Positions 24,149 to 49,452 of a DNA stretch of 64,000 bases are shown here, in pieces. The position numbers were made by a program, and so were the translations under genes. Under the pieces are notes generated by a model that did no database searches, had not been told where the DNA came from, and saw only the letters and a list, made by a program, of their open reading frames with translations. The stretch is from Actinomyces johnsonii (GTDB taxonomy: Bacteria; Actinomycetota; Actinomycetes; Actinomycetales; Actinomycetaceae): NCBI RefSeq assembly GCF_006546835.1, contig NZ_VICB01000019.1, positions 127,070 to 191,069 of the forward strand. Direction: 5' to 3'. How positions within the stretch are numbered: the stretch's first letter is position 1; each line of letters starts with the position of its first letter.

Positions 24149-24162
24149 TTCATCCTGACAAA
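24149..24162. promoter_or_regulatory. Degenerate GntR/IolR-type operator upstream of the 24017 operon
   Basis: TTCATCCTGACAAA matches the locus consensus TTTGTCCTGACAAA at 12 of 14 positions. It lies about 130 bases before the oxidoreductase start and upstream of the LacI-type palindrome. Confidence 0.45.
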
Positions 24163-24291
24163 GGAGGTCGTTCCGAGGGACTGGCGAAGAGACTGGGACC
24201 GTGGTCCCCGGCCGGGAAGATGGCGCAAGGTGCCGTTGCTGTCCGAGGGTGGTCGGTGCGTGAGCCGGCTCGGTGCCGGACGTATCGCTCG

Positions 24292-25320
24292 TCAGCGTCC
24301 CAGGGAGGAGGCTCGGGTGACGAGCTGTGGCTTCAGGACCACACTGCGGGCCTGGGGTCCGGCGAGCGCCCCGGCCTGTAGTCCGTCGTCGGGCGCCAGC
24401 CCTGCGCGTCGGCACACCAGGTCCACGGCCTGCTCGCCCAGGAGATCCTCGGGCTGGTCGATGCTGGTCAGTGAGAACTCCTTGCGCAGGGCCAGGTAGG
24501 TGTTGTCGTAGGAGACCAGGGCGACGTCGCCCCCGGGCTTGCGGCGGCGCTCTCGCAGGACGGGCACGGCGTCGATGGCCAGGACGTCGTTGTGAATGAC
24601 CAGGCCCAGCGGCTCGGAGTGGTCCTGCAGGGCCGCGCGGGTGGCGGGGCCCGCGTCCTCGCCGCAGCTGCGCACCTCGAAGTCCAGTCCGGTTGCCTGA
24701 GCGGCTTGAGCCAAAGAGCGTTCTCTGTCCTGGCGGGAAGCAGCGTCGGTCATTCGCGGGCCGATATAGCAGATCGTGCGCATGCTTAAGGCCGCCAGAT
24801 GGTCGACGACGAGCCGGGCGGCGGCCTCCTCATCGACCCGCACGGAGTCGACCCGCCCACCGGGACTGCACCGCCCGATGACGCAGGTCGGCACCTCCTC
24901 GCCGATGGCGAGCAGGTCCTCGCCGGGCAGCCAGGGTGAGACGAAGATGATGCCAGCGACCCGCACCCCCAGCAGGCTCTCGACGGCCTGGTGCAGGACT
25001 TCGGGCTGATCGGAGCCGACCGTGACGAACAGGGTGAGGCCGCGCTGGGCGGCCGCCCGTCCCAGGCAGGCCGCGATCTGCTCGAAGAAGGCGTTGCGCA
25101 GGTTGGGCAGCACCAGACCGATGATGGTCGAGCGCTTGCGGGCCAGCGAGGAGGCTGAGACGTTGACCCGGTAACCGAGAGAGGCGGCCACTTCCTCGAT
25201 GCGCTCGCGGGTGCTGGCGGCGACCTTGGGTGAGCCGCTCAGGGCCAGTGAGACCAGGCTGCGCGAGACCCCGGCGACGCGAGCGACGTCGCTCTGGGTG
25301 GCGGCATGAGCCTTGGTCAC
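24292..25320 (-). CDS. LacI-family transcriptional regulator
   Basis: 342 aa. The N-terminal helix-turn-helix is QSDVARVAGVSRSLVSLALSG with the hinge ERIEEVAASLGYRVNVSASSLA, followed by a periplasmic-binding-protein-like ligand domain (TIIGLVLPNLRNAFFEQIA ... VALVSYDNTYLA ... TSIDQPEDLLGEQAVDLV). It most likely represses the oxidoreductase-isomerase operon transcribed in the same direction 275 bases downstream. A 12-bp palindrome GTGCGATCGCAC 43 bases before its own start may allow autoregulation. The ligand is not known; a sugar or cyclitol is expected. Confidence 0.9.
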   Translation of the reverse strand: MTKAHAATQSDVARVAGVSRSLVSLALSGSPKVAASTRERIEEVAASLGYRVNVSASSLARKRSTIIGLVLPNLRNAFFEQIAACLGRAAAQRGLTLFVTVGSDQPEVLHQAVESLLGVRVAGIIFVSPWLPGEDLLAIGEEVPTCVIGRCSPGGRVDSVRVDEEAAARLVVDHLAALSMRTICYIGPRMTDAASRQDRERSLAQAAQATGLDFEVRSCGEDAGPATRAALQDHSEPLGLVIHNDVLAIDAVPVLRERRRKPGGDVALVSYDNTYLALRKEFSLTSIDQPEDLLGEQAVDLVCRRAGLAPDDGLQAGALAGPQARSVVLKPQLVTRASSLGR

Positions 25321-25362
25321 CGTCTCTCCTGGTCCTCTCGCGACGGGGTGCCGTCTTTAGGG

Positions 25363-25374
25363 GTGCGATCGCAC
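25363..25374 (-). promoter_or_regulatory. Palindrome GTGCGATCGCAC upstream of the LacI gene
   Basis: Perfect 12-bp palindrome, 43 bases before the LacI start codon at 25320, in a position suited to autoregulation. It differs from the CG-centred palindrome at 24080, so binding by the same protein is uncertain. Confidence 0.35.
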
Positions 25375-25556
25375 TGCCCGGTTGCCAAGAAGGCTACAGG
25401 CAGACAAGGGGACTGTGGCAGTAGTGGATCGACATGCTCGGGTGTCGGCGGGGAGCACAACGACGCTCCCGACCGGTGGTGGTCGGGAGCGTCGAAGTGA
25501 GGCGTCAGCCGGTGGGGTCCGCCCGGAGGGGGAGTCCGTGCGAGCCCCGCGACGCC

Positions 25557-26483
25557 TCAGGCTTTGAAGAGCGTGCCCTCGAGGTAGGCGCGCGCCTTGC
25601 GGGCGTACTCCAGGGGGTTGGCGATGGCCGGGTCCTGCTCGGCCTCCACCAGGATCCAGTTGCGGTAGCCGTGGTCCACCAGGAACTTGTAAGGCACGGT
25701 GAAGTCGATCGTGCCGTCGCCGGGAACGGTGAACATGCCGGCCAGGAAGGAGTCGAGGAAGGAGCGCTCGGCGGCCTTGGACTCCGCCATCTTCTCGGGG
25801 CGCACGTCCTTGAAGTGGACGTGCTTGACGCGGTCGATGGTGGCCTCCAGCAGGCCCATGACGTCGCCGTCGCCCACGTAGGCGTGGCCGGTGTCGAACA
25901 GGAGGGAGACCTTGGCCGGGTCGGTCAGCTCCATGAGGCGGATGGTCTCCTCCTTGGTCTGGATGACCGTGCCCAGGTGGTGGTGGTAGACGAGCTCGAG
26001 GTCGTGGGCGTGGGCGACGTCTCCCAGGCGGTCCAGGCCCTCGGCCAGGACCGGCCACTGCTCCTCGGTGAGCACCGGCTTGTTGGTGAAGATGCAGACG
26101 TCGCGGATGCCCTGGACCGAGCCGGTCTGCTCGGAGACGACGACGCGGGTGGCGCCCAGGTACTCCAGGTAGGCGCAGGTGGCCTCGAACTCGGGGATGA
26201 CGGCCTCGACGCCGTCGCGCAGGATGAAGGAGGAGAACCACTGGGCGACGATCTTGATGCCGCGGGCCTCGGCGGCAGCCTTGACCTCCTCCTTGGGTGG
26301 GAAGAAACCGGCGCACTCGGTGCCGGCGAAGCCGGTGTCGGCCAGGTCGAGGAGCATGTCCTCCAGGGTGTTGAAGGCGCCGACCTCGGGGATGTCGTCA
26401 TTGCGCCAGGTGATGGGGTGCATGCCCCAGGAGATGCCGTGGGGGTCGGAGATTGCGGTTGCGGGGTCGAGTGAGAAGGACAT
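25557..26483 (-). CDS. iolE: Inosose dehydratase (2-keto-myo-inositol dehydratase)
   Basis: 308 aa from ATG 26483 (AGAAGGAC sits inside the start, a weak site upstream). It matches IolE over its whole length: GMHPITWRNDDIPEVGA, GFAGTECAGFFPP, AQWFSSFILRDG, VVVSEQTGSVQG, LVYHHHLGTVIQTKEE, LLFDTGHAYVGDGD, VKHVHFKDVR, FLAGMFTVPGDGTIDF and ILVEAEQDPA. IolE removes water from 2-keto-myo-inositol to give the cyclic dione that IolD opens. It is a single gene with its own operator-promoter, separate from the iolC-B-D group ten kb away. Confidence 0.93.
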   Translation of the reverse strand: MSFSLDPATAISDPHGISWGMHPITWRNDDIPEVGAFNTLEDMLLDLADTGFAGTECAGFFPPKEEVKAAAEARGIKIVAQWFSSFILRDGVEAVIPEFEATCAYLEYLGATRVVVSEQTGSVQGIRDVCIFTNKPVLTEEQWPVLAEGLDRLGDVAHAHDLELVYHHHLGTVIQTKEETIRLMELTDPAKVSLLFDTGHAYVGDGDVMGLLEATIDRVKHVHFKDVRPEKMAESKAAERSFLDSFLAGMFTVPGDGTIDFTVPYKFLVDHGYRNWILVEAEQDPAIANPLEYARKARAYLEGTLFKA

Positions 26484-26644
26484 CGTTGCTCCGTGTCTGG
26501 TTGGGGGTCTAGCTGGTGTGGTGGTCTGTGGGTGAATGGTGAGCCATGAGCCGGTGGCTGGTACGCCGTCGGCCTGTGGCCGCGGTCGGGTGCTCCCGGG
26601 AGGCGGGTGCCGGCGTCGGTGCCGGGCGATGGGCCCGTGCAACG

Positions 26645-26674
26645 AACCTAGCAACAGGACTTTGTCCTGACAAG
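26645..26674 (-). promoter_or_regulatory. iolE promoter with embedded GntR/IolR-type operator
   Basis: TTTGTCCTGACAAG at 26661-26674 contains the exact 12-mer TTGTCCTGACAA. Read on the minus strand, its half TTGTCA (26673-26668) is a -35 box followed by a 17-base spacer and TAGGTT as -10 (26650-26645). A regulator bound to the palindrome would cover the -35 box. It lies about 165-190 bases before the iolE start. Confidence 0.75.
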
Positions 26675-26716
26675 CCTCAAAGTTGCCTCCCGGGAGCGCG
26701 TGCCGCTGGGACGGGG

Positions 26717-28372
26717 TCAGGAGTAGAGCTTCTCCATCTCGACCTCGATCTCCTCCAGGGACTTGTCCTTGGTCTCCGGCATGATCTTGAACAGGATGAC
26801 GGCCACGACCAGGTTGAGCACACCGTAGATGGTGTAGGTGACGCCGCCGCCCAGGGTCTCCATCATGGGCGGGAAGGTCCAGGTGATGATGGCGTTGGCG
26901 GTCCACATGCAGAAGATCGCCGTGCCGTTCATGATGCCGCGGACGTTGGCCGGGAAGATCTCACCCATCATCGTCCACACGATCGTGCCGTTGGAGGACT
27001 GCACGATGAGCATGAAGACGGACATGAGCCCCAGGATGAGATAGGCGGCCCAAGCGGGCGGGGTGGTGTGGCTGGCCATGTGAGGGGCGATGAAGAACTG
27101 GAAGGTCGCGGCGATACCCAGCAGGGTGACGCCCACGCCGATGACGTCGCCGATGAGCACCTGGCGACGGCGGAACTTCAGGATGAGCCAGATGCCGATG
27201 GCCGAGCCGATGACCGACATGACGCCGTTGGCCACCTGGGCGGTGATGGACGCGGAGGTGGACATGCCGGCGTACTCCAGCACCTTGGGGGCGTAGTACA
27301 TGACGGTGTTGACGCCGGTGGTCTGGTTGACCACGGCCAGGAAGATGCCGACCAGGAGCAGCTTGCGCAGCCAGGGTGTGGCCATGACATGGCTGAAGCC
27401 CTTGCGCTGGGACTCCTCCTGCTTCTCGTGCTGACGAGCCTCGACCATCTCCATGATCTCGTCCTCGATGGAGCCGTCCTTCTCCGGGACGCGCACGCGC
27501 TTGAGGGAGCCGATGGCGTCGTAGAGGCGCTCCTTGGCCAGGTACCAGCGCGAGGACTCGGGCATGAGTCGGATCCCGATCCACAGGGCCACGGCCGGGA
27601 TGGAGCACAGGACCAGCATGTAGCGCCAGGCCTCGCCGTTACCGGCGCTGATGCTGAGCTGGTCGAGGAAGGCGTGGTACTCGGCCCCGCTCATTGAACC
27701 GCCCTTGGAGGCCTGGAGCTTGGTGATCTCATCGAAGACGTAGGTGCCTGGGGAGAAGTGCCCGCTGGGGTCGTTGGCGATGGTGATCTTCGGGCCGCCC
27801 TGGAGGGAGTTGATGATGGCGTTCATCGAGAAGGCGAGCAGCTGACCGGTGACGATCATGAGCTGGTCGATGGCCACGATGGAGCCGCGAATGCGTTTGG
27901 GCGCCGTCTCCGCCAGGTAGACGGGGACCGTTGCGGAGGCGGCGCCGACGGCGAAGCCTAGGATGACGCGGAAGGGGTACATGACCCACACGTTGGGGGC
28001 GATGGTGGTTCCGATCGCGCCGATGAAGAACAGGGCGGCCAGGACCGTGATGTTGTGCCGCCGGCCCCAGCGGTCCGACATGAGCCCGCCCAGCAGCGCG
28101 CCCAGCGCGGCGCCGACCAGCAGGGTGCCGCCGATGGCGCCTTCCTCAAAGGAGGTCAGCTGAAGGCCCTTGGCGTCGAAGGGCATGTACATGTACGGCA
28201 GGGCGCCGGAGATGACGCCGGTGTCGTAGCCGAAGAGCAGTGAGCCGAGTGTGGCCACGGCGGCGATGGCGACGACGCCGCGGTGCTTGCCCGATGGCGG
28301 GGTGTCGGCCACCGCCTTGCTGAGCTCTTCTCTGGTGAGTCCGCGCAGGGACGTCGTGACTCCCTGTGACAT
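26717..28372 (-). CDS. iolT: Myo-inositol-type MFS sugar porter (first copy)
   Basis: 551 aa, 12 membrane segments, starting at ATG 28372 with GAGGAG upstream. Sugar-porter marks: LGSLLFGYDTGVISGALPYM, DRWGRRHNI, AETAPKRIRG, PESSRWYLA, NQTTGVNTVMYYAP and the end MPETKDKSLEEIEVEMEKL. The GYDTGVI...ALPYM pattern and a long loop between segments 5 and 6 are typical of actinobacterial IolT-like inositol transporters. It lies downstream of an oxidoreductase gene on the same strand, with a hairpin in the 112-base gap. A second close relative is at 46278. Confidence 0.9.
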   Translation of the reverse strand: MSQGVTTSLRGLTREELSKAVADTPPSGKHRGVVAIAAVATLGSLLFGYDTGVISGALPYMYMPFDAKGLQLTSFEEGAIGGTLLVGAALGALLGGLMSDRWGRRHNITVLAALFFIGAIGTTIAPNVWVMYPFRVILGFAVGAASATVPVYLAETAPKRIRGSIVAIDQLMIVTGQLLAFSMNAIINSLQGGPKITIANDPSGHFSPGTYVFDEITKLQASKGGSMSGAEYHAFLDQLSISAGNGEAWRYMLVLCSIPAVALWIGIRLMPESSRWYLAKERLYDAIGSLKRVRVPEKDGSIEDEIMEMVEARQHEKQEESQRKGFSHVMATPWLRKLLLVGIFLAVVNQTTGVNTVMYYAPKVLEYAGMSTSASITAQVANGVMSVIGSAIGIWLILKFRRRQVLIGDVIGVGVTLLGIAATFQFFIAPHMASHTTPPAWAAYLILGLMSVFMLIVQSSNGTIVWTMMGEIFPANVRGIMNGTAIFCMWTANAIITWTFPPMMETLGGGVTYTIYGVLNLVVAVILFKIMPETKDKSLEEIEVEMEKLYS

Positions 28373-28389
28373 AGGGGGTCTCCTCTCAG

Positions 28390-28484: not shown

Positions 28485-29681
28485 TCAGGCGTCGAAGGTG
28501 GTCCGGCCCTCGACGCGGGGCACCTTGTGCCACTGGCCGTCGGCGGCCGAGGCGACGACAGCCTCGTCGACCTCTGCGGCGCACCAGGCGTCGGCGGCCG
28601 AGGGGGCGACCTGCTTGCCGGTGATGATCGACTCGATGAACTGAGCGGCCTCGATGGCCTTCATGTCGTCGAAGCCCATGGAGGTGCCGATGGCTGGTTG
28701 GAAGCGCTGCCACTGGCCCCACTGGGGGCCGGCCATGGCGCGGGTGTAGCCGTGGGAGGCGCCGCCGTCGAGCACGGGGCAGATCTCCAGCTCGTTGAGG
28801 CGCTCGAAGTTCCAGCGGGCCGAGCCCTTCGTGCCGTAGACCTCGACGACGTACTCGGCGCGCGGGCCCACGCTGACGCGGGAGGACTCCATGGTGCCGA
28901 CGGTGCCGTTCTCGAAGCGCACCAGCATGGAGACGTAGTCTTCGTTCTCCACCGGGCCCACTTCATCGCCGATCTCGAAGCCGGAGTGGCCGATGCCCAT
29001 CTTGGTGGGAATGGGGCGCTCGGTGATGAAGGTGTCGGTGACCGCGGTGACCGAGGCGATACGCCCCACGATGTACTGGGCCAGATCCGCGCCGTGGCTC
29101 ATGAGATCGGGCACGACGCCGGCCCCGGCCTTCTCCTTTGAGGCCCGCCAGGTCAGGGGGCCCAGGGGGGAGGAATTGTAGTCAGCGATGAACCACACGC
29201 GAACGTTGGTGATGCGGCCGAGCTCGCCGCCGCGCACCAGGGAGCGCAGGTACTCGATCGCCGGGGTGTGGCGGTAGTTGAAGCCGACGGCGGTGACGAG
29301 GTCCGCCTTCTCGGCGGCCTGGGCGATCTCGCGGGACTGTGCGGCACTGACCCCCATGGGCTTTTCGATCCAGAAGGGCTTGCCGGCCTTGACGGCCGCA
29401 AGGGCCATCTCATGGTGGAGGAAGTTGGGGGCGCAGATGGAGACGGCCTCCACCTCGGGGTCGGCCAGCAGATCGTGGTAGTCGGCGTAGGCGCGCTCGA
29501 AGCCCAGATTGTCCACCGCCTCCTGACGCACCTGGTCCACCGGATCGGCGGCCGCAACCAGACGCGGGACCACGCCCAGCTCGGGGAAGCGCTCGGCGAT
29601 GGCGCGGTAGCTGCGGGCATGGAGCCGCCCCATCCATCCCAGGGAGATGACTCCGAGGCTCAATATTCTCTTGTCGGTCAT
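28485..29681 (-). CDS. Gfo/Idh/MocA oxidoreductase of the inositol regulon
   Basis: 398 aa from ATG 29681 (AGGAACGTT upstream). Nucleotide fold LGVISLGWMGRLHARSYRAI (serine in the usual G-x-G-x-x-G spacing), catalytic block PFWIEKPMGVS, then FNYRHTPAIEYLRSLV and MSHGADLAQYIVG. Its promoter carries the GntR-type operator, and it is followed by iolT, so it should act on an imported inositol or a relative such as scyllo-inositol. Which isomer and which cofactor cannot be told from sequence. Confidence 0.86.
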   Translation of the reverse strand: MTDKRILSLGVISLGWMGRLHARSYRAIAERFPELGVVPRLVAAADPVDQVRQEAVDNLGFERAYADYHDLLADPEVEAVSICAPNFLHHEMALAAVKAGKPFWIEKPMGVSAAQSREIAQAAEKADLVTAVGFNYRHTPAIEYLRSLVRGGELGRITNVRVWFIADYNSSPLGPLTWRASKEKAGAGVVPDLMSHGADLAQYIVGRIASVTAVTDTFITERPIPTKMGIGHSGFEIGDEVGPVENEDYVSMLVRFENGTVGTMESSRVSVGPRAEYVVEVYGTKGSARWNFERLNELEICPVLDGGASHGYTRAMAGPQWGQWQRFQPAIGTSMGFDDMKAIEAAQFIESIITGKQVAPSAADAWCAAEVDEAVVASAADGQWHKVPRVEGRTTFDA

Positions 29682-29773: not shown

Positions 29774-29803
29774 AACATATCAGAGTGACTTTGTCCTGAC
29801 AAG
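29774..29803 (-). promoter_or_regulatory. Promoter and GntR/IolR-type operator of the 29681 gene
   Basis: TTTGTCCTGACAAG at 29790-29803. On the minus strand the half site TTGTCA (29802-29797) is a -35 box, followed by a 17-base spacer and TATGTT as -10 (29779-29774). This is the same architecture as at iolE, about 95-120 bases before the start codon. Confidence 0.78.
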
Positions 29804-29810
29804 ATGAAAG

Positions 29811-30079: not shown

Positions 30080-31135
30080 GTGAAGGAACTTCGAGGGCGC
30101 GGTGGCAGGGTCACGATCAGGACCGTGGCCGAGCACGCCGGCCGTTCCATCTCCACCGTCTCGGCGGCACTCAACGGCTCCGACGGCGTCGCCGAGAAGA
30201 CCCGCGAGGAGATCCTGCGCATCGCCGCCGAGCTCGGTTACCAGGCGGACCCGCGCGCCCAGTTCCTGCGCCGTAGCCACACCGGGCTCATCGGGGCCAG
30301 TTTCGCCATCGGGCAGGCCTATCAGGGACTCGTTGTGGACGGGCTCTACCAGGCGGCCTCCAACCTGGGGCACGGTCTGGTCCTGGCTACCTCCACCCCG
30401 CACCGGGACGTGGCCGATGGACTGCGCGCCCTGCTGCTGGAGCGCTGCGAGGGGCTCGCCCTCGTCGACCCCGATATCCCGGTGGATGCCCTGGCCCGCA
30501 TCGTGGGTCGTACTCCGGCGGTCGTCATCGGTACCACCACCGAGTTGAGTGACGTCGACGAGATCCACTCCCGCGACGACGTCGGCATCCAGCTGCTCGT
30601 CGATCATCTCGCAGGTACCGGGCGGCGTCGTATCACCCATGTGGACGGTGGGGAAGAGACCTCGGCGAAGCGACGGGTCGAGCGCTTCGGCCAGGCCATG
30701 GAGCAGCGCGGACTGGGGGGCACCATCCGGGTGGTGCCCGGGGGAGGCGATGAGAACAGTGGTGCCAGAGCGGTCCACCACCTCATCGAGTCCGGTGAGC
30801 TGCCCGAGGCCTTGCTGTGCTTCAACGACCATTGCGCCGTCGGGGCTCTCATGGAATTGCGCCGTCAAGGCGTACGCGTCCCGCAGGACGTGGCTGTCAC
30901 CGGCTATGACGGCATCCCGGTGACAGCGGCTACGGCCTTCTCTTTGACCACAGTGCGTCAGAATGCCGGTCTCATCGCCGAGGTGGCGGTGCGGGCGCTG
31001 CTGACCCGCATGCACCCGGATCAGGATGGCCGGATCCCCGCGGAGGTGGCCTGCGAGGACCGGCGCCTGGGCGGCCGCCTCTATCGGGTGGTGCCCGACC
31101 TGGTCGTCCGGGACACGACGGCCCGCGCCGCGTGA
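30080..31135 (+). CDS. LacI-family transcriptional regulator
   Basis: 351 aa from GTG 30080, chosen because GGGAGG lies eight bases before it; the frame is open much farther upstream but without a site. Helix-turn-helix VTIRTVAEHAGRSISTVSAALNG, hinge TREEILRIAAELGYQADPRAQFL, ligand domain (GLIGASFAIGQAYQGLVVDGLYQAA ... VAVTGYDGIPVTAATAFSLTTVRQNA). A -10-like TAGGAT is at 29984-29989. It is transcribed with the aldose epimerase downstream (150-base gap) and away from the inositol oxidoreductase. The ligand is unknown. Confidence 0.88.
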   Translation: MKELRGRGGRVTIRTVAEHAGRSISTVSAALNGSDGVAEKTREEILRIAAELGYQADPRAQFLRRSHTGLIGASFAIGQAYQGLVVDGLYQAASNLGHGLVLATSTPHRDVADGLRALLLERCEGLALVDPDIPVDALARIVGRTPAVVIGTTTELSDVDEIHSRDDVGIQLLVDHLAGTGRRRITHVDGGEETSAKRRVERFGQAMEQRGLGGTIRVVPGGGDENSGARAVHHLIESGELPEALLCFNDHCAVGALMELRRQGVRVPQDVAVTGYDGIPVTAATAFSLTTVRQNAGLIAEVAVRALLTRMHPDQDGRIPAEVACEDRRLGGRLYRVVPDLVVRDTTARAA

Positions 31136-32361: not shown

Positions 32362-33351
32362 TCAGTTCAGGCGCACGGGCTGGCCGGAGTGAGCAGACTC
32401 CGTGGCGGCCTCGGCCAGGCGCAGGGCGGCGATGGCGTCGCCGATGCCGGTGGGAGGCGTGGTGCCGGCCTCGACGGCCTCGATGAAGGCGCTCAGCTCG
32501 ATGCGGTAGGCGTCGGCGTAGCGCTCTAGGAAGAAGTCGAGGTAGGGCTCCTGGGCGTCGGTGACCTCGCCGTTGGACAGGCGCACTGTGGTGGCGCGAA
32601 TGTTCTCGGCGAACAGGGCGCCCTCGCGCCCGGAGGCCTCCAGGCGCTGGTCGTAGCCAGAGGAGCAGTGGCGGTTGTTGATGATGGTGGCCACGGCGCC
32701 CGAGGCGGCCTTGAGGGTGACGACGGCGGCGTCGAAGTCGCCGGTGTCCTTCAGTGCCGGGTCGAGGTTCTGGCCGGCGGCGTAGACCTCCTCGATCTCG
32801 CCCAGGAAGAAGCGGGCGGTGTCGAAGTCGTGGATGGTCATGTCGCGGAAGATGCCGCCGGAGACCTTGATGTACTCCGCTGGCGGGGCGGCCGGGTCGC
32901 GGCTGATGATGGTCAGCTGCTCGATGTCGCCGATCTTGCCGGCCTCGACCGCGGCGCGGGCGGCGGCGAAGCTGGGGTCGAAGCGGCGGTTGAAGCCGAA
33001 CATGACGGGCACCTCGACGGCGTCGAGCTCGGCCTGGGCGGCCTCGACGTCCTTCATGTCCAGGGCGATCGGCTTCTCGCACAGCACCGCCTTGCCCGCC
33101 TTGGCGGCGGCCAGCAGGTGGGGGATGTGCAGCGGTGTGGGTGAGCCGACGATGACGGCGTCGATCTCGGGGTCGGCGAAGACCTCCTCGGCGTCCTTGC
33201 AGGACCGAGCCCCGTAGTCGGCGGCGAGCTTCTCGGCGGCGTCCCCGAAGGGGTCGCAGACCAGCGCGAGACGGGCCTGGGGGTGGGCGGCGATGGTCTT
33301 GGCGTGGACGTGGCCGATGCGGCCGGCGCCGATGACGGCGATGGAGAGCAT
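32362..33351 (-). CDS. iolG: Inositol 2-dehydrogenase (IolG)
   Basis: 329 aa from ATG 33351 (GGAGCAAGG upstream). Nucleotide fold AVIGAGRIGHVHAKTI, VGSPTPLHIPHLLAAAKAGK, catalytic lysine in VLCEKPIALD, FGFNRRFDPSF and the active-site D/H pair in GGIFRDMTIHDFDTARFFLG, the pattern of classical myo-inositol 2-dehydrogenases. It oxidises myo-inositol to 2-keto-myo-inositol with NAD, the first step of the pathway. It is second in a minus-strand pair with the transaldolase (185-base gap). Of the four Gfo/Idh/MocA genes in the window this is the best match to IolG. Confidence 0.9.
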   Translation of the reverse strand: MLSIAVIGAGRIGHVHAKTIAAHPQARLALVCDPFGDAAEKLAADYGARSCKDAEEVFADPEIDAVIVGSPTPLHIPHLLAAAKAGKAVLCEKPIALDMKDVEAAQAELDAVEVPVMFGFNRRFDPSFAAARAAVEAGKIGDIEQLTIISRDPAAPPAEYIKVSGGIFRDMTIHDFDTARFFLGEIEEVYAAGQNLDPALKDTGDFDAAVVTLKAASGAVATIINNRHCSSGYDQRLEASGREGALFAENIRATTVRLSNGEVTDAQEPYLDFFLERYADAYRIELSAFIEAVEAGTTPPTGIGDAIAALRLAEAATESAHSGQPVRLN

Positions 33352-34678: not shown

Positions 34679-34724
34679 ATTGAAGTGTGCTCAGCGCCAT
34701 CTGTCAACAAATTGTCAGGACAAA
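34679..34724 (-). promoter_or_regulatory. Transaldolase-iolG promoter with GntR/IolR-type operator
   Basis: The operator ATTGTCAGGACAAA at 34711-34724 contains the exact 12-mer TTGTCAGGACAA. Three bases downstream on the minus strand is a consensus -35 TTGACA (34707-34702), then 17 bases and TTCAAT (34684-34679). Here the operator lies just upstream of the -35 box instead of overlapping it. Confidence 0.72.
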
Positions 34725-36862: not shown

Positions 36863-36873
36863 GGAGACCCCCG

Positions 36874-41018: not shown

Positions 41019-41032
41019 TATGTTCTGACAAA
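41019..41032 (+). promoter_or_regulatory. GntR/IolR-type operator upstream of iolA
   Basis: TATGTTCTGACAAA matches the consensus TTTGTCCTGACAAA at 12 of 14 positions. It lies about 155 bases before the iolA start. Candidate -10 boxes TAGGAC (about 41050) and TAGGCT (about 41058) lie just downstream. Confidence 0.6.
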
Positions 41033-41188: not shown

Positions 41189-42682
41189 ATGAGAACGATT
41201 GCGCACTGGATCGACGGAAAGCCCTATGAGGGCACTCCGATCGGCCGTTTCGCCGTCGAGAACCCGGGAACCGGTGAGGTTGAGGCCGAGCTGCTCCAGG
41301 CCTCCGACGCCGACCTTGACCACGCCGTCGAGGTGGCTCGCCGCGCACAGAAGGAGTGGGCCAAGGTCTCCCTGGCCAAGCGCACGGAGATCATGTTCCG
41401 CATGCGCCAGCTGGTCCTGGACCACCAGGACGAGATGGCCAAGCTGATCGTGGCCGAGCACGGCAAGAATTACTCCGACGCCGTCGGCGAGATCCAGCGC
41501 GGCCGCGAGACCCTCGACTTCGCCACCGCCATCAACGTGGCCCTCAAGGGCGAGTTCTCCTCCGGCATCTCCACCGGCGTAGACATCCACACCCTGCGCC
41601 AGCCGGTCGGCGTCGTCGCCGGCATCTGCCCCTTCAACTTCCCGGCGATGGTGCCCATGTGGATGCACCCCATCGCCATCGCTACCGGTAACGCCTTCGT
41701 GCTCAAGCCGGCCTCGGCCACCCCCTCGGCGGCGCTGCTGACGGCCGAGCTCTACAAGGAGGCCGGCTTGCCCGACGGCGTCTTCAACGTCGTTTCCGGC
41801 AACCGCACCATGGTCTCCAAGGTCCTCGAGCACCCCGGCATCGACGCGATTTCCTTCGTGGGCTCCACCCCGGTGGCCCACATCGTCCAGAACACCGGCG
41901 TCACCCACGGCAAGCGCGTCCAGGCCCTGGGCGGAGCCAACAACCACGCCATCGTCATGCCCGACTCCGACCTGGACTTCGCCGCCCAGCACATCTCCGC
42001 CGCCGCCTTCGGGGCCGCCGGCGAGCGCTGCATGGCCCTGCCCGTCGTCGTGGCCGTGGGCGGTTGCGGGCCGGACCTCGCTCGCCGTGTCAAGGCCCAC
42101 GCTGAGAAGATCAAGGTCGGCTACGGCATGGACGAGGGCGTCGAGATGGGTCCGGTCATCGACGCCAAGTCCAAGGAGTTCATCACCGGTCTCATCGACG
42201 ACGCCGAGTCCCGGGGCGCCGAGATCGTCCTCGACGGTCGTCCGCTGGTGATCCCCGGTCACGAGAAGGGCCACTTCCTCGGCCCGACCATCGTCGACAA
42301 CGTCCCCCTGGAGTCCTCGCTCTACACCGAGGAGGTCTTCGGACCGGTGCTCGCGATCGTCCACGCCGACACCTATGAGGAGGCCATCAAGCAGGTCAAT
42401 TCCTCGCCCTTCGGCAACGGGGCGGCCATCTTCACCAACGATGGCGGCGTGGCACGCCGCTTCGAGCTCGACGTCGAGGCCGGCATGGTCGGTATCAACG
42501 TGCCGATTCCGACGCCGGTGGCCTACTACTCCTTCGGCGGATGGAAGGAGTCGCTCCTGGGCGACACCCACATCCACGGTCCCGAGGGCGTGCGGTTCTA
42601 CACCCGCGCCAAGGCGGTCACCAGCCGCTGGCCCTCGGAGAAGACCTACGCCGCGACTATGTCCTTCCAGCGCGAGGAGTAG
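41189..42682 (+). CDS. iolA: Methylmalonate/malonate semialdehyde dehydrogenase (acylating)
   Basis: 497 aa, CoA-dependent aldehyde dehydrogenase. Visible: HWIDGKPYEG, GICPFNFPAMVPMWMHPIAIATGNAFVLKPA, SFVGSTPVAHIV, ALGGANNHAIVMPDSD, and the catalytic cysteine in GERCMALPVVV, where the GANN-N/GxRCMA pattern is specific for MmsA/IolA. AGGAGTC lies before the ATG. It turns malonate semialdehyde into acetyl-CoA and CO2, ending the pathway. Monocistronic between two strong terminators, with its own operator. Confidence 0.96.
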   Translation: MRTIAHWIDGKPYEGTPIGRFAVENPGTGEVEAELLQASDADLDHAVEVARRAQKEWAKVSLAKRTEIMFRMRQLVLDHQDEMAKLIVAEHGKNYSDAVGEIQRGRETLDFATAINVALKGEFSSGISTGVDIHTLRQPVGVVAGICPFNFPAMVPMWMHPIAIATGNAFVLKPASATPSAALLTAELYKEAGLPDGVFNVVSGNRTMVSKVLEHPGIDAISFVGSTPVAHIVQNTGVTHGKRVQALGGANNHAIVMPDSDLDFAAQHISAAAFGAAGERCMALPVVVAVGGCGPDLARRVKAHAEKIKVGYGMDEGVEMGPVIDAKSKEFITGLIDDAESRGAEIVLDGRPLVIPGHEKGHFLGPTIVDNVPLESSLYTEEVFGPVLAIVHADTYEEAIKQVNSSPFGNGAAIFTNDGGVARRFELDVEAGMVGINVPIPTPVAYYSFGGWKESLLGDTHIHGPEGVRFYTRAKAVTSRWPSEKTYAATMSFQREE

Positions 42683-42841: not shown

Positions 42842-42855
42842 TTTGTTAGTACAAA
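42842..42855 (+). promoter_or_regulatory. Palindromic operator TTTGTTAGTACAAA upstream of the 42939 gene
   Basis: The outer arms TTTGT and ACAAA of the locus operator are perfect; the four central bases differ (TAGT instead of CCTG). It lies about 85 bases before the start codon at 42939. TACAGT further on (about 42889) could be the -10 box. Confidence 0.55.
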
Positions 42856-42938: not shown

Positions 42939-43868
42939 ATGTCCAAAGCCGTCAACACCAACGACCCCAAGTACTCCAAGCTCACCATCGGCGTCTGCCC
43001 TGACCAGTGGGGCGTCTGGTTCCCCGAGGACCCCAAGCAGATGGACCCCCGTCAGGCCTGGGAGGAGATGGCCGAGGCTGGCTTCGAGGTCATCGAGACT
43101 GGCCCCTTCGGCTACTTCCCGACCGACCCCAAGGAGCTCCAGAAGTGGTGCGACGAGTTCGGCTTGAGGGTGGTGGCCGGTACCGGCTGGGGCATCCTGC
43201 ACAAGCAGGAGGCCTGGGAGACCACGCTCAAGACCTTCCGCGCCATCGCCGAGACCCATGCCGCCGTCGGCGCCGAATACATCGTCCACCTGCCCCCGCT
43301 CTACCGCGACGACAAGACCTGGGAGTGGACCGACGACCGCGTCCTGTCCGACGACGCCTGGAAGCTCTACGTCGAGCATGCCAACGCCCTGGGCCAGATG
43401 CTCCTGGATGAGTACGGCCTCAAGATGGTCCTCCACCCCCACGGCGACTCCCACATCGAGACGCCCGAGGAGATCGCCCGCATCTTCGACGCCACCGACC
43501 CGACCTACGTCAACCTGTGTCTGGACTCCGGGCACGTCGTCTACGGCGGCGGCGACCCGGTCGAGTTGTGCCGGAAGTACCCCGAGCGCATCACCTATGT
43601 CCACATCAAGGCCTTTGACGAGGACATCACCCGCGAGGCCCACGAGAAGGACTGGCCTTTCGGTGAGGCCGTCACCAAGGGTGCCTCGGTCTGCCCGCCC
43701 GCCGGCCTGCCCGAGATGCACGAGTTCGTCGACGCCTTGGCGGCCCTGGACAAGCCGATCTACGCGATCTGCGAGCAGGACTGCTACCCCTGCGACCCCT
43801 CCTTCCCCAAGCAGAACGCCATCAACATGCGCACGTACCTGGCCGAGTGCGGCCTGGGACTGGCATGA
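42939..43868 (+). CDS. Sugar phosphate isomerase/epimerase, inosose-handling type
   Basis: 309 aa from ATG 42939 (GAAGGAGA upstream). Xylose-isomerase-like barrel: IGVCPDQWGVWFPEDPKQ, AGFEVIETGPFGYFP, GTGWGILHKQEAW, MVLHPHGDSHIETPEE, LCLDSGHVVYGGGDP, ITYVHIKAF and ICEQDCYPCDPS. The layout resembles IolE/IolI relatives that isomerise or dehydrate inososes. It is translationally close to the next oxidoreductase (62-base gap), so the two probably act in succession on a second cyclitol or its keto form. Exact reaction unknown. Confidence 0.85.
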   Translation: MSKAVNTNDPKYSKLTIGVCPDQWGVWFPEDPKQMDPRQAWEEMAEAGFEVIETGPFGYFPTDPKELQKWCDEFGLRVVAGTGWGILHKQEAWETTLKTFRAIAETHAAVGAEYIVHLPPLYRDDKTWEWTDDRVLSDDAWKLYVEHANALGQMLLDEYGLKMVLHPHGDSHIETPEEIARIFDATDPTYVNLCLDSGHVVYGGGDPVELCRKYPERITYVHIKAFDEDITREAHEKDWPFGEAVTKGASVCPPAGLPEMHEFVDALAALDKPIYAICEQDCYPCDPSFPKQNAINMRTYLAECGLGLA

Positions 43869-43930: not shown

Positions 43931-44941
43931 ATGACTGTACGCATCGGACTCATCGGCGCTGGCGGTATGGGCCGCGCCCACCTGGCCCGCATTGCGGGTG
44001 TCCTGTCCGGCGGCGAGATCGTCGCCGTGGCCGACATCAACCACGACGCCGCGGTCTCGGCCGCGGAGCCCTATGGTGCCAAGGCCTATGACAGCGCCGA
44101 TGAGCTCATCAACGATCCGAACGTCGACGCCGTCCTCATCGCCACCTTCGGCAAGGTCCACGCCCCCGACGTCATCAAGGCCATCGAGGCCGGCAAGTAC
44201 GTCCTGTGCGAGAAGCCCTTGGCCACCACCGCCGAGGACTGCATCGCCATCATGGAGGCCGAGCAGAAGGCCGGCAAGAAGCTCGTCACCGTGGGCTTCA
44301 TGCGCCGCTTCGACGTCGCCTACAACGAGATGAAGAAGGTTCTTGACGACGGCGAGAACGGCCAGGCCCTCCTGGTCCACAACCGTCACCGCAACCCCAC
44401 CGTGCCGGAGTCCTACACCTCGCGCATGGCCATCGACGACACGGCGATCCACGAGATCGACACGATGCGCTGGCTCCTGGGCGAGGAGATCGTCAAGGTG
44501 CGCGTCGAGCGCCCCAAGTCGACCACTCACCGCTTCGACCACCTCATCGACCCGGTCGTCGTCGTGATGTACACCGAGTCCGGCGTGCGCATCGATGACG
44601 AAGTTAACGTCAACCTGCAGTACGCCTACTCCATCGAGTGCGAGCTCGTGCTGGAGACCGCCGCGGTGAGGCTGGGCGACCAGGAGCGGATCCACATCCG
44701 CGACATCCACGGCGACCGCAACGCCATGTGCCAGTCGCACATCGACCGCTTCGAGGCCGCCTTCAACCGCGAGGTGCAGGAGTGGATCAACGCCGTGGCC
44801 CGCGATGAGCACACCGGCTCGACCTCCTGGGACGGCTACGCGGCCACCTCCGTGGTCGACGCGGCGGTTGCCTCGCTGGAGGACGAGTCCTCGCCGATGG
44901 TCGACGTCAAGCTCATCGCCAAGCCCGCCTTCTACGCCTGA
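43931..44941 (+). CDS. Inositol 2-dehydrogenase-like Gfo/Idh/MocA oxidoreductase
   Basis: 336 aa from ATG 43931 (GAGGAGA upstream). Nucleotide fold IGLIGAGGMGRAHLARI, catalytic lysine YVLCEKPLATT, GFMRRFDVAYNEMKKV and the active-site block MAIDDTAIHEIDTMRWLLGEE, an IolG-like arrangement. It shares the operon and operator of the 42939 isomerase. With iolG at 32362 it gives two good inositol dehydrogenase candidates; one may prefer another isomer (scyllo- or chiro-inositol) or another cofactor. A terminator hairpin follows. Confidence 0.88.
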   Translation: MTVRIGLIGAGGMGRAHLARIAGVLSGGEIVAVADINHDAAVSAAEPYGAKAYDSADELINDPNVDAVLIATFGKVHAPDVIKAIEAGKYVLCEKPLATTAEDCIAIMEAEQKAGKKLVTVGFMRRFDVAYNEMKKVLDDGENGQALLVHNRHRNPTVPESYTSRMAIDDTAIHEIDTMRWLLGEEIVKVRVERPKSTTHRFDHLIDPVVVVMYTESGVRIDDEVNVNLQYAYSIECELVLETAAVRLGDQERIHIRDIHGDRNAMCQSHIDRFEAAFNREVQEWINAVARDEHTGSTSWDGYAATSVVDAAVASLEDESSPMVDVKLIAKPAFYA

Positions 44942-45188: not shown

Positions 45189-45202
45189 ATTGTCATGACA
45201 TT
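45189..45202 (+). promoter_or_regulatory. GntR/IolR-type operator upstream of iolH
   Basis: ATTGTCATGACATT with the perfect 10-bp palindrome TGTCATGACA at 45191-45200, 46 bases before the iolH start. This core is an exact fit to the Corynebacterium IolR motif (KGWCHTRACA, from memory). Confidence 0.72.
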
Positions 45203-45247
45203 ATGGGTGTTGTCGACATAGCCGTCGGCACCTGAGAGGAGACTTCC

Positions 45248-46117
45248 TTGGTAGACATCGCCCTTGACCCGAACATGTACTACCGCACCATGCCCACGGT
45301 GCGAACCCTTGACAAGGCGGCCGAGCTGGGCTTCGAGTACGTCGAGCTCTCGCCCAACGCGGACTTCCACTTCTGGCACCACCGTCCCGCCGCCGACGAC
45401 GCCTTCGTCGCCGAACTCAACAAGGCGCAGAAGGAGACGGGCGTGAAGGTGCGCACCCTCAACCCCGTCTTCAACTGGTCCTCGCCCGACGAGGAGGAGC
45501 GGTGCGCCCAGGTGTCCAACTGGCGGCGCCTGCTCGAACTGGCCGACCAGATTGACGTCCGGGAGATCACCTCGGAGTTCTCCGGGGACCGCAACCAGGC
45601 TCGCCGCAGTGAGGAGCAATGGTTCCGTTCCATCGAAGAACTCATCCCCGACTTCGAGCGCTACGGCATCCGCCTCAACATGGAGGCCCACCCCTACGAC
45701 TTCGTCGAGCTGCACGACCCGGCCCTGAACCTCGTGCGCGCGGTCAACAAGGACTGGATCGGGTACGAGTTCTGCTGCCCGCACGCCTTCCACCTCTCCG
45801 ACGGCGTTGGTGACGTCGAGCGCATGATCCGCACCGCTCACGAGGCCGGCAAGCTGCGCGAGGTCCACATCGCCGACGGTTTCAACCACCGTGCCAACGA
45901 CGGCAACCGCTACATCATCAACCCGCCTGGCGCTGATGTCACCGTCCACCAGCACAACGAGGTCGGCAACGGTGAAGTCGACTGGGACGCCGTCTTCTCC
46001 ACGCTGCGAGACATCGGCTTCGACGGTGTGCTCTCCGTGTGCGTCTTCGGCTGGCACGAGCACGCCGATGACATCAACCGCCGAGTGCTGGCCCGGCTCC
46101 ACGAAGAGCTCGGCTGA
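45248..46117 (+). CDS. iolH: IolH-type sugar phosphate isomerase/epimerase
   Basis: 289 aa, the length of Bacillus IolH. The start is a TTG at 45248: AGGAGACTTCC is ideally placed before it and no ATG is available, while the alternative GTG at 45251 would be one codon shorter. Blocks: DIALDPNMYYRTMPTVRTLDKAAELGFEYVELSPNADF, WSSPDEEERCAQVSNWRRLLELADQ, LNMEAHPYDF, HIADGFNHRAND and VTVHQHNEVGNGEVDWDAVF. IolH is a conserved member of iol operons whose precise reaction is not settled. It is followed by the second iolT. Confidence 0.88.
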   Translation: MVDIALDPNMYYRTMPTVRTLDKAAELGFEYVELSPNADFHFWHHRPAADDAFVAELNKAQKETGVKVRTLNPVFNWSSPDEEERCAQVSNWRRLLELADQIDVREITSEFSGDRNQARRSEEQWFRSIEELIPDFERYGIRLNMEAHPYDFVELHDPALNLVRAVNKDWIGYEFCCPHAFHLSDGVGDVERMIRTAHEAGKLREVHIADGFNHRANDGNRYIINPPGADVTVHQHNEVGNGEVDWDAVFSTLRDIGFDGVLSVCVFGWHEHADDINRRVLARLHEELG

Positions 46118-46277: not shown

Positions 46278-47894
46278 ATGTCCACACCATTGAATTCTGC
46301 GGCGCAGTACACGCCGGAGAAGATTCAGGAGCTGGTCGACCAGACTCCCGCCTCGGGTCCGAAGCGCTCGCTCGGACTCATCGCCCTGGTCGCCACCCTC
46401 GGCTCGCTGCTCTTCGGCTACGACACCGGAGTGATCTCAGCCGCGCTGCCGTATATGTATCTGCCTCACGACGCCAGTGGCCTTCAGATTAACTCGGTGG
46501 AGGAAGGTCTCGTAGGGACCTTCCTGTGCCTGGGCGCCGCATTGGGCGCCTCGGTCGGCGGCAAGCTTTCCGACAAGTACGGGCGTCGCCACAACATCAC
46601 GCTCCTGGCCGCCGTCTTCTTCTTCGGCGCACTGGGGTGCACCTTCTCGCCGAACATCTGGATCCTCTACTTCTTCCGCATCGTCCTGGGCTTCGCCGTC
46701 GGCGGCGCCTCGGCGACGGTCCCGGTCTTCCTCGGTGAGACGGCCCCCAAGCGCATCCGCGGAACGCTCGTGGCCGTGGACCAGATGATGATCGTCTTTG
46801 GCCAGTTCCTCGCCTTCTCGATGAACGCGGTCCTGACCCAGATCCACGGTGGTCCGGAGGTCACCGTCGCCAAAGACGTCGTCAACAATTCCGGCGAGGT
46901 TGTCGCCAAAGCGGGCGAGACCGTCTCCTGGGAGTCGGTCCAGCACCTGGCCAACGTCGCCGTCGAGTCCGGTAACGGTACGACCTGGCGCTACATGCTT
47001 GTGCTGGCCTCGCTGCCGGCCATCGCGCTGTGGATCGGGATCCGTCTCATGCCGGAGTCCTCGCGCTGGTACGTCGCCAACTTGCGTATCGCCGAGGCCA
47101 TCGGAGCCCTCAAGCGCGTGCGCGATGAGTCCAAGGACGGCCCCATCGCCGACGAGATCGACGAGATGCTCGAGGTCCAGCGCAGGGAGGCCAGCCAGGA
47201 GAAGTGGGGCCTGGCCCAGATCCTGGGCGTCAAGTGGACCCGGCACCTGCTCATCATCGGCATTATCCTGGGCCTGGCGGACCAGCTCACCGGTATCAAC
47301 ACGGCCATGTACTACACGCCCAAGGTGCTCTCCGCGGCAGGTCTGCCCATGAGTGACGCGATCTCCCTCAACGTCGTCTCCGGATTCATCTCCTTCGTGG
47401 GATCGGCGGTCGGCCTGTGGCTGGTCACCAAGTTCGCCCGCCGGCACGTGGGCATCTACCAGGAGGCCAGCATCGTGGTCTCCCTGGGGCTCTTGGCCGC
47501 GGTCTTCTTCTTCCTCATCCAGCCCTATCAGGATGCCGACGGCAACATCAAGGGCGCTCCCACCTTCGCCCCCTACCTGGTGCTGTTCATCGTCTCCCTG
47601 TTCGTCTTCGCCAAGCAGTCCGGAACGGTCACCTGGGTCCTCGTGGCGGAGATCTTCCCCGCCAAGGTCCGCGGCACGGCCATGGGGCTGGCGGTCGGCG
47701 CTCTGTGGGTCGCCAACGCGATCGTCGCCCTGGTCTTCCCCATCATGATGGAGAAGCTCGGGGGAGCAGGCACCTACCTCATCTTCTGTCTCATCAACGT
47801 GTTGTCTCTCATCTTCTACATGAAGTACGTGCCCGAGACGAAGTACCACTCCCTGGAGGAGCTCGAGGAGCGCTTCGAGAAGGAGTTCAGCTGA
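46278..47894 (+). CDS. iolT: Myo-inositol-type MFS sugar porter (second copy)
   Basis: 538 aa, 12 membrane segments, AAGGAG before the ATG. LGSLLFGYDTGVISAALPYM, DKYGRRHNI, GETAPKRIRG, PESSRWYVA, DQLTGINTAMYYTPKVL and the end VPETKYHSLEELEERFEKEF mark a sugar porter closely related to the one at 26717, with a similar long loop between segments 5 and 6. It lies 160 bases after iolH without an operator of its own, so it is probably co-transcribed; a small hairpin GGACCG-N7-CGGTCC followed by a T run (46199-46234) lies in the gap and may attenuate. Confidence 0.9.
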   Translation: MSTPLNSAAQYTPEKIQELVDQTPASGPKRSLGLIALVATLGSLLFGYDTGVISAALPYMYLPHDASGLQINSVEEGLVGTFLCLGAALGASVGGKLSDKYGRRHNITLLAAVFFFGALGCTFSPNIWILYFFRIVLGFAVGGASATVPVFLGETAPKRIRGTLVAVDQMMIVFGQFLAFSMNAVLTQIHGGPEVTVAKDVVNNSGEVVAKAGETVSWESVQHLANVAVESGNGTTWRYMLVLASLPAIALWIGIRLMPESSRWYVANLRIAEAIGALKRVRDESKDGPIADEIDEMLEVQRREASQEKWGLAQILGVKWTRHLLIIGIILGLADQLTGINTAMYYTPKVLSAAGLPMSDAISLNVVSGFISFVGSAVGLWLVTKFARRHVGIYQEASIVVSLGLLAAVFFFLIQPYQDADGNIKGAPTFAPYLVLFIVSLFVFAKQSGTVTWVLVAEIFPAKVRGTAMGLAVGALWVANAIVALVFPIMMEKLGGAGTYLIFCLINVLSLIFYMKYVPETKYHSLEELEERFEKEFS

Positions 47895-47911
47895 CTCACT
47901 CGGTCAGGGGG

Positions 47912-48008
47912 CTGAGACAGTGTTGACTCGGTGACAGGCCGTCGGGTTGGTGGGCCCGCCAGGAGCGGATTGAAGCCGACCGCCCGGTTCTGACACACTG
48001 TCTCAGCT
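47912..48008. repeat. Long-range inverted repeat between iolT and a degenerate porter
   Basis: GCTGAGACAGTGT (47912-47924) and its exact complement (47996-48008) are 71 bases apart; flanking bases continue the match imperfectly. The space between has no gene. It may be a terminator of unusual size, a cruciform or the trace of a mobile element. Confidence 0.55.
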
Positions 48009-48097
48009 CCCGTCCGACGTCGTCAGCGTCAGCTGATGCCACATCTGAACAGACATCTACACACAATGCCGCCCATGACGTACACGGTGACCGGTCC

Positions 48098-49378
48098 ATG
48101 ACCCCGCATCCGCCGCGCAGCGCGCCACCCGCCCCGGTTCGCCTCCGCCTGTACGCATGGGCGGTAGGCCTGTTCCTGGGGGCTCTCGAAGGGGCTCTCG
48201 CCATCGGGGTTGCGGGCGCCCGCGGAGGCGCCCTGCCGCTCGTCGGCGTCGTCGGTGCGGCGATGGTTCTGGGGACCGTCGCCGGCAGGCCCCTCTCCCG
48301 GCACCTGGGCCGCAGGCGAACCGGCCTGGTCATGGCCGTGCTGGCCGCGGCGGGAGCGGGACTCGCAGCAGGGCTCGAGGGTATCCCCGTCCTCATCGGA
48401 GCCGGCCTCGCGGGTCTGGCCTCGGGCGGGATGCTCGTCGTGGCTCCACTGGTCTGCCACGAGCTCTCCCTACGCGGACACAAGCGCCTCATGCCGCAGG
48501 TCATGGCCCTCGGGCCCGCCGGAGCGGGCGTGGTGGCACTAGCGGCCTGGTGGAGTCCAGCGCGAGTGCCCGCCGCCTGGGGGGTGTTCGGGGGTGCCGC
48601 GCTGATCTACCTGGTCTGCGTCCTGCGTCTTCCCGAGAGTCCGGTCTGGCTCGTGGGGCAGTGCCGGGATGTCGAGGCCTTTGAGGCGCTGCGCCGCCTG
48701 CACGGAACTCTGGAGGCCTCCGTGGCCATCGACTGGACCCGCCTGGATGCCGAGATGCTGGCCGAGCAGCAGGCACTGACCCCCGCCGACCTGCGGGTGC
48801 CCCAGGTGCGTAGCGCCGTGCTGACCGGAGCTGTGCTCATCCTGGCCCAGGAGGCGCCGCTGGGGGCGGCGGCTCTGGTCCTCGCTCCGCTGGTTGTGGC
48901 CGATCTCGGCCTCGGCTCGGGTGCGATCGCCGTCAGCGCCACGACCTGGGTGGGGTGGACGCTCCTCGCCCTGGCGCTGGTGACCCGGGTCGAGCGGTTG
49001 CGCTTCCTGCGCGTGGTCCTGGGCGCTGTTGTGGCCGTCCTGGGGGCGACCTTCCTGGTCGTCGGTATGTCTCTCGGGGGAGCGGCGGGCGCCTGGATGA
49101 TCGTCATCTCATTGACGATCCTCGTGGCCAGTCAGTCGGTGCTGGTCTTGCCGGCCTGTCAGGGGGCGATCGACCCGCGGATCCCGCCGTGGCTGGTCGA
49201 AGCCCAGCGAAGAGCCTCGGCGACCGGAGGGGCCCTGGCGCGCGCGGGCGTCCTCATCGCTGCGCTGCTCGTCGTGGTTCACCTTGGGATGCCAGTCCTA
49301 TACTGGGCGGCCTTCGCGCTGTCGCTGGTCAGCGCCGTCGTCGTGCTCCTGCGGCTGCCGCGGGAACTGAAGGTCTGA
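48098..49378 (+). CDS. Degenerate MFS sugar porter-like protein
   Basis: 426 aa, about 12 hydrophobic segments. It keeps parts of the sugar-porter pattern: SRHLGRRRTGLVM after segment 2 and LPESPVWLVGQCRDVEAFEALRRLH after segment 6. But the GYDTG motif of segment 1 is gone (LFLGALEGALAIGV), the loop between halves is short, and there is no PETKG-type end. It is about 110 residues shorter than both iolT copies. Transport is doubtful; a sensor-like or altered-substrate role is possible. No ribosome-binding site is clear before the ATG. Confidence 0.75.
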   Translation: MTPHPPRSAPPAPVRLRLYAWAVGLFLGALEGALAIGVAGARGGALPLVGVVGAAMVLGTVAGRPLSRHLGRRRTGLVMAVLAAAGAGLAAGLEGIPVLIGAGLAGLASGGMLVVAPLVCHELSLRGHKRLMPQVMALGPAGAGVVALAAWWSPARVPAAWGVFGGAALIYLVCVLRLPESPVWLVGQCRDVEAFEALRRLHGTLEASVAIDWTRLDAEMLAEQQALTPADLRVPQVRSAVLTGAVLILAQEAPLGAAALVLAPLVVADLGLGSGAIAVSATTWVGWTLLALALVTRVERLRFLRVVLGAVVAVLGATFLVVGMSLGGAAGAWMIVISLTILVASQSVLVLPACQGAIDPRIPPWLVEAQRRASATGGALARAGVLIAALLVVVHLGMPVLYWAAFALSLVSAVVVLLRLPRELKV

Positions 49379-49433
49379 GAGGACGGGTATGAAGGGTACC
49401 CGCGACCGGATTCCGAGAATCCGACTTCAGACC

Positions 49434-49452
49434 TATAATTTGTCAGGACAAA
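49434..49452 (+). promoter_or_regulatory. Alcohol dehydrogenase promoter (TATAAT) with perfect GntR/IolR-type operator
   Basis: A consensus -10 TATAAT at 49434-49439 is joined to the full operator TTTGTCAGGACAAA at 49439-49452 (they share one T). TTCCGA lies 17 bases upstream as a weak -35 box. A bound regulator would cover the transcription start. Confidence 0.8.

Follow-up and report, generated by a model that had tools for sequence, protein, structure and literature searches.

A predicted inositol regulon of a GntR/UTRA regulator in Actinomyces johnsonii

Background

The inositol locus of Actinomyces johnsonii, spanning about 21.7 to 50.7 kb of the 64-kb stretch of contig NZ_VICB01000019.1 analysed here (the window, to which positions refer throughout), raises the question of whether one protein controls its several transcription units and, if so, which. 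An initial annotation had proposed that a recurrent palindrome before nine units marks a single regulon, read by the GntR/UTRA regulator encoded within the locus. Here, we describe ten such sites, the confinement of their exact core to the window and their conservation across the genus. On this comparative evidence the sites are very probably operators of one regulator, a GntR/UTRA protein predicted to repress its own gene and the inositol catabolic units.

Operator sites in the window and the genome

All nine sites of the initial annotation are present where it had placed them, and the four sequences that it spelled out agree letter for letter, but the total is ten, as the site at 53868-53881 had been overlooked. 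The sites are given below with the genes that they precede and, where counted, the orthologous promoters holding a site that matches at least 9 or at least 10 of 12 consensus positions.

24149-24162, TTCATCCTGACAAA: before a Gfo/Idh gene (22791-24017, minus strand) and a TIM-barrel gene (21712-22710, minus strand); at least 9/12 in 12/14 orthologous promoters
26661-26674, TTTGTCCTGACAAG: before iolE (25557-26483, minus strand); exact core; at least 10/12 in 15/20
29790-29803, TTTGTCCTGACAAG: before a Gfo/Idh gene (28485-29681, minus strand) and a major facilitator superfamily (MFS) sugar porter (26717-28372, minus strand); at least 10/12 in 18/18
34711-34724, ATTGTCAGGACAAA: before the transaldolase gene (33537-34613, minus strand) and iolG (32362-33351, minus strand); at least 10/12 in 21/21
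35700-35713, AATGTTCTGACAAA: in the divergent gntR/iolC region; at least 9/12 in 17/21 gntR and 9/10 iolC upstream regions
41019-41032, TATGTTCTGACAAA: before iolA (41189-42682, plus strand); at least 9/12 in 18/19
42842-42855, TTTGTTAGTACAAA: before an iolE-like gene (42939-43868, plus strand) and an iolG-like gene (43931-44941, plus strand); at least 9/12 in 14/14
45189-45202, ATTGTCATGACATT: before an iolH-like TIM-barrel gene (45248-46117, plus strand), followed by an MFS gene (46278-47894, plus strand); at least 9/12 in 9/14
49439-49452, TTTGTCAGGACAAA: before a zinc alcohol dehydrogenase gene (49533-50699, plus strand); at least 10/12 in 20/20
53868-53881, ATTGTCTAGACAAA: the tenth site, before a small membrane-protein open reading frame (53471-53734, minus strand); exact core

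The site at 35700 would serve both gntR autoregulation and iolC-iolJ-iolB-iolD. The strict consensus put forward initially, TTGTC-N2-GACAA, fits five of the ten sites, but the other five deviate from it. Likewise, KGWCHTRACA, the IolR motif of Corynebacterium, describes the sites at 26661, 29790, 34711, 45189 and 49439 but not those at 24149, 35700, 41019, 42842 and 53868; it has 5 matches in the window, every one of them a site of the initial annotation.

A scan of the whole genome gave an answer that depends on stringency. Without mismatches, the core TTGTCNNGACAA occurs at 5 places in 3,348,294 bases (starts 26662, 29791, 34712, 49440 and 53869); no copy lies outside the window in the whole 3.35-Mb genome, and the control, the core read backward, has 0 matches. 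Under random scatter the probability of all five falling in the window is near 1e-10, a figure that assumes independent placement and a region that was in fact drawn after the sites had been seen. The sole perfect copy of the 14-mer in the genome is TTTGTCAGGACAAA at 49439, and with 2 mismatches or fewer the 14-mer TTTGTCNNGACAAA is found at 26 places, of which 8 are in the inositol locus, against 12 for the control. The core at up to 2 mismatches, in contrast, was no commoner than its control (454 places in the genome versus 509) and is uninformative. The variants at 24149, 35700, 41019, 42842 and 45189 are therefore not callable from one genome, and judging weak sites in this way was rejected.

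Conservation of the sites in the genus

We took 32.7 to 40 kb around the regulator gene from 20 of the 48 other genomes covered by the searches of the genus, together with the window, and scored sites over the 12 consensus positions with thresholds of at least 9 and at least 10. We excluded orthologs of less than 55% identity, tblastn matches that begin beyond residue 25 and stretches cut by an end; for iolC, the residue-25 filter removes 11 of 21 genomes. Across the nine units, 144 of 161 promoters hold a site at 9/12 or better and 117 of 161 one at 10/12 or better, as compared with 33/805 and 4/805 dinucleotide shuffles, respectively. Upstream regions of nine other genes, mostly internal to operons (21712, 26717, 31286, 32362, 36874, 37908, 38892, 43931 and 48098), yielded a site in 0/147 cases. 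Four genes belong to neither pool, and at the lower threshold they gave 1/13 (LacI gene 24292), 8/16 (LacI gene 30110, which uses the same divergent region as the site at 29790), 3/13 (MFS gene 46278, the positives being the genomes without iolH in front) and 9/10 (iolC).

Conservation in orthologous promoters supports the weak variant sites (12/14, 17/21, 18/19, 14/14 and 9/14 at 9/12 or better, in the order of the list). Three units have a site of at least 10/12 before every ortholog that was counted: 21/21 for the transaldolase, 20/20 for the alcohol dehydrogenase and 18/18 for Gfo/Idh 28485. The first two, which the initial annotation had noted as unusual in inositol breakdown, are among the best-conserved bearers of the site. 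Several units show little variation in the distance from site to start codon: for the alcohol dehydrogenase it is -93 to -95 in 13 of the 20 promoters, with extremes of -60 and -213, for the transaldolase -104 to -137 across all 21 promoters, and for the unit at 42842 -97 to -142 across all 14.

The regulator

34766-35518, minus strand: GntR/UTRA regulator of the HutC subfamily, proposed binder; PF00392 at 48.3 bits and PF07702 at 130.8 bits, both over the cut-off

The regulator has the N-terminal GntR winged helix and the C-terminal UTRA domain looked for in a HutC-subfamily protein, and these are the only Pfam domains over cut-off, with neither a DeoR nor an RpiR domain among them. Its closest named relatives, at 90-94% identity, are from Actinomyces sp. 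ZJ308, A. sp. oral taxon 170, A. oris and A. naeslundii, and its closest solved relatives are 2ra5 (which we take to be SCO6256 of Streptomyces coelicolor), YvoA/NagR, 2p19 (presumably a Corynebacterium glutamicum protein) and DasR. The gene lies within an inositol catabolic cluster, with operators before the units and before itself, as expected of an inositol repressor. It is the one GntR/UTRA regulator of the locus, which also holds two LacI regulators.

An ortholog of the regulator (E at most 1e-60) is present in 46 of 49 genomes of the genus, including all 42 with iolD, and is missing solely from 3 that also lack iolD (Fisher p 0.0019, uncorrected for kinship). Exact cores number 146 over the 49 genomes, versus 25 for the backward control. 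The 42 genomes with iolD average 3.3 each and the 7 that lack iolD have 0 to 2, the three without the ortholog having 0, 1 and 0. We also scored 60 of the 61 named loci, setting aside L107, a match that is both short and distant. Up to 300 bp to each side of the regulator gene, a site of at least 10/12 is present in 38 of the 44 loci with iolB, iolC or iolD nearby and in 8 of the 16 others, and the loci with a site include ones from Cutibacterium, Gleimia, Nocardia and Propionibacterium. Random single 300-bp windows hold such a site in 31 of 1088 cases (2.8%), a fair comparison being about twice that.

The operator geometry points to the same family. HutC-subfamily operators are palindromes with GT-4 nt-AC (PMC4494728), a rule that TTTGT-CNNG-ACAAA satisfies. 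In the NagR-DNA structure, Arg48 contacts G-4, Arg38 contacts G-5 and Gly69 enters the minor groove (PMC4333415). An alignment of 15 proteins (the window and 14 congeners, taken from 15 of 30 loci) shows the Arg48 counterpart to be invariant and the Arg38 counterpart to be Leu or Val in 15/15, and the Actinomyces sites have G-4 and T-5. Arg at position 28 of the HutC subfamily, which we infer to be Arg38 of NagR, prefers G/C and avoids A/T (PMC4494728). The replacement of Arg38 by Leu/Val would match that of G-5 by T-5, a prediction that fits.

Taken together, the conservation of the sites, the co-occurrence with iolD, the absences of LacI orthologs described below, the HutC geometry and the match of NagR residues to bases make the local GntR/UTRA protein the best reading of the binder, as the initial annotation had supposed, and argue strongly that it would read all ten sites. 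In the proposed mechanism, a GntR/UTRA dimer would occupy the palindrome TTTGTC-NN-GACAAA, on the promoter or next to it, and so keep its own gene and the inositol units from being transcribed. Inositol or a breakdown product may then bind the UTRA domain and release the DNA.

Alternative explanations

Several observations weigh against this reading. Promoters without a site of at least 9/12 occur for iolE (5/20), iolH (5/14), gntR (4/21), 22791 (2/14) and iolA (1/19), the compared genomes are kin and not independent, and the regulator occurs without iolD in four Actinomyces genomes (G022, G014, G061 and G015). The base frequencies come from sites picked by their likeness to the consensus. A wider count, in which Arg stands at the Arg38 position in 0 of 61 proteins, is biased by the peptide patterns used in the search (EDE[LV]SMA[KR] and VSRPT[AT]RQA), only the 15 aligned proteins being free of that bias. 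Finally, in consensus scans a promoter-like pair on the right strand overlaps only 2 of the 10 sites, those at 29790 (TTGTCA-17-TATGTT) and 53868.

This last observation would suit a GntR protein that binds the same sites as an activator, or in both roles, instead of as a plain repressor, and some sites (those of the transaldolase and iolC, by eye) do stand just upstream of a -35-like element and not on it. Since the two sites named do overlap and the relative described from C. glutamicum acts as a repressor (PMC9603128), we consider an activating or dual role unlikely.

Still less probable is that another GntR/HutC paralog of the DasR/NagR kind reads the sites. The genome has 4 GntR-like matches in all, and NagR/DasR-type sites share GTC-NN-GAC, but the two other matches listed for this genome have 32 and 34% identity, the sites cluster round the local gntR and its promoter, in other genera included, and T-5 is ill-suited to a reader of the Arg38 type.

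The least credible candidates for binding the palindrome are the two LacI regulators (24292-25320, minus strand, and 30110-31135), even though both sit within the inositol locus, LacI 30110 and Gfo/Idh 28485 flank the site at 29790, and LacI-family inositol regulators exist (7 groups, IolR being an example; PMC4052901): we rejected them in that close orthologs are missing from 7 and 4 site-keeping genomes, respectively, with no match above 34% identity to LacI 24292 in the whole genomes G065, G010, G007, G003, G024, G035 and G009 and none above 35% to LacI 30110 in G024, G035, G028 and G009, while sites persist there in 6/6 promoters of each of G065, G010, G007 and G003, 4/6 of G024, 6/8 of G035, 4/5 of G009 and 6/7 of G028, and in that most LacI palindromes are centred on CG (PMC4052901), which these sites are not, a separate CG-centred palindrome being present at 24080-24093.

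A probable second regulatory layer and a possible off-locus site

24080-24093, TTCACGCGCGTGAA: LacI-type palindrome with central CG, likely operator of LacI gene 24292-25320 (minus strand); conserved before 12 of the 14 orthologs of 22791

Among those 14 promoters, the exceptions are G020, which has a variant, and G028, which has none; in the A. johnsonii genome TTCACGCGCGTGAA has one place at up to 1 mismatch. The central CG is typical of LacI operators (PMC4052901), and the neighbouring LacI gene is the likely reader. If TTCACGCGCGTGAA is read by that LacI protein, the unit 22791-24017 stands under two regulators, which suggests dual control by GntR and LacI. In G023 and G032 the same palindrome also stands before an additional sugar porter.

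For a regulon that would extend beyond the locus, the best candidate place is C10:10408 (TTTGTCCGGACGAA; L149 1501-1514), about 113 bp before a G5-domain gene. The stretch was found in 7 of 35 genomes searched, its own included, with TTTGTCCGGAC kept in 7/7 and the second half-site varying. Other off-locus places were viewed for gene layout, three of their genes by Pfam.

Relation to known systems

Inositol regulators called IolR belong to different families, that of Bacillus being of the DeoR type and the rhizobial one reportedly of the RpiR type, and both differ in their domains from the GntR/UTRA regulator of Actinomyces. In C. glutamicum, the GntR-type repressor IolR acts on the genes for inositol transport and catabolism (PMC9603128), and the Actinomyces regulator is likewise of GntR type and placed at inositol catabolic genes. 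This likeness concerns another genus, and the predicted Actinomyces regulon has further members in the transaldolase, the zinc alcohol dehydrogenase and the 87-residue protein. In C. pacaense (L099), a relative lies divergent beside iolC as in Actinomyces, with a 10/12 site between. Exchanges of A to G and C to G in the iolT1 promoter of C. glutamicum relieve IolR repression (PMC6460773), which would suit the AC of the core. In S. coelicolor, to judge by the titles of Yu 2015 and Yu 2016 (cited in PMC6608401), the genes of myo-inositol catabolism are under the GntR-type regulators SCO6974 and SCO6256. NagR and DasR share with our regulator the domains, the half-site geometry and the conserved Arg48 counterpart, but in Actinomyces Arg38 is replaced by Leu/Val and G-5 by T-5, and the metabolic pathway is another.

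A survey of inositol clusters lists Actinomyces among the genera that have them, mentions an IolR of A. ruminicola and reports the order CBDE in 28% of those actinobacterial species that are positive (PMC9430895); iolC, iolB and iolD follow one another in that order in the window. In the passages considered (12 of 13), this survey describes no operator, and transaldolase has 0 occurrences in its text. Among the literature matches listed for Actinomyces, a survey of inositol clusters is present and no title concerns such a regulon. By its domains, genomic place and operator geometry, the predicted regulon is of the GntR-type inositol repressor kind, as in C. glutamicum and S. coelicolor, that is, a known kind of control in a new place.

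Genes of the locus

The locus encodes the following inositol enzymes, alongside further Gfo/Idh dehydrogenases, TIM-barrel proteins, sugar porters and the three regulators discussed above.

25557-26483, minus strand: IolE, myo-inosose-2 dehydratase (TIGR04379, 335.1 bits, cut-off 290)
32362-33351, minus strand: IolG, inositol 2-dehydrogenase, collinear with the transaldolase gene (TIGR04380, 398 bits, cut-off 355)
35819-36862, plus strand: IolC, 5-dehydro-2-deoxygluconokinase (TIGR04382, 390.9 bits, cut-off 300)
36874-37797, plus strand: Cgl0159-like aldolase, probably for the iolJ-type step (PF22649, scored on the frame 36706-37797)
37908-38834, plus strand: IolB, 5-deoxy-glucuronate isomerase (TIGR04378, 324.2 bits, cut-off 205)
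38892-40799, plus strand: IolD, acylhydrolase (TIGR04377, above cut-off)
41189-42682, plus strand: IolA, CoA-acylating (methyl)malonate-semialdehyde dehydrogenase (TIGR01722, 629.6 bits, cut-off 448.5)
42939-43868, plus strand: second IolE-like protein (TIGR04379, 146.2 bits, under the cut-off of 290)
43931-44941, plus strand: second IolG-like dehydrogenase (NF052679, 361.8 bits, under the cut-off of 540)

Beyond the locus, a macro-domain protein (52295-53167, minus strand) lies beside 51442-52353 (minus strand), which is Sir2-like by eye and has no Pfam match.

Unexpected predicted members

33537-34613, minus strand: transaldolase-family protein (TAL_FSA), with Lys141 aligned to the KIPAT/KVPAT lysine of solved transaldolases
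49533-50699, plus strand: zinc alcohol dehydrogenase (ADH_N, ADH_zinc_N)
53471-53734, minus strand: small protein of 87 amino acids, membrane-like by eye, with no Pfam match; candidate tenth target

In 38 of the 60 named loci, the gene immediately downstream of the regulator encodes the transaldolase; of the 44 with iol genes, 37 have it and 7 do not. No relevant title on a transaldolase in inositol loci was among the literature matches listed. In A. dentalis (L069), transaldolase and iolG fragments and a sugar porter persist beside the regulator, together with a perfect site. The tenth site lies 134 bp before the small open reading frame, which is found in 16 fetched regions, 15 of them with a site of at least 10/12 (two perfect) and one, G032, with 8/12.

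It is possible, although we rather doubt it, that these three proteins carry out real steps in the use of inositol by fermenting actinobacteria that have so far gone unrecognised, and that the inositol repressor controls them genus-wide. Examples would be the rearrangement of sugar phosphates, the reduction of an intermediate aldehyde for redox balance and a function at the membrane.

Implications

The analysis provides a predicted inositol regulon for Actinomyces that is testable, and within a well-studied repressor family it offers a residue-to-base prediction, with Leu/Val for Arg38 and T-5 for G-5. Further, the conserved operators would connect the products of three more genes, the transaldolase, the alcohol dehydrogenase and the 87-residue protein, with the use of inositol.

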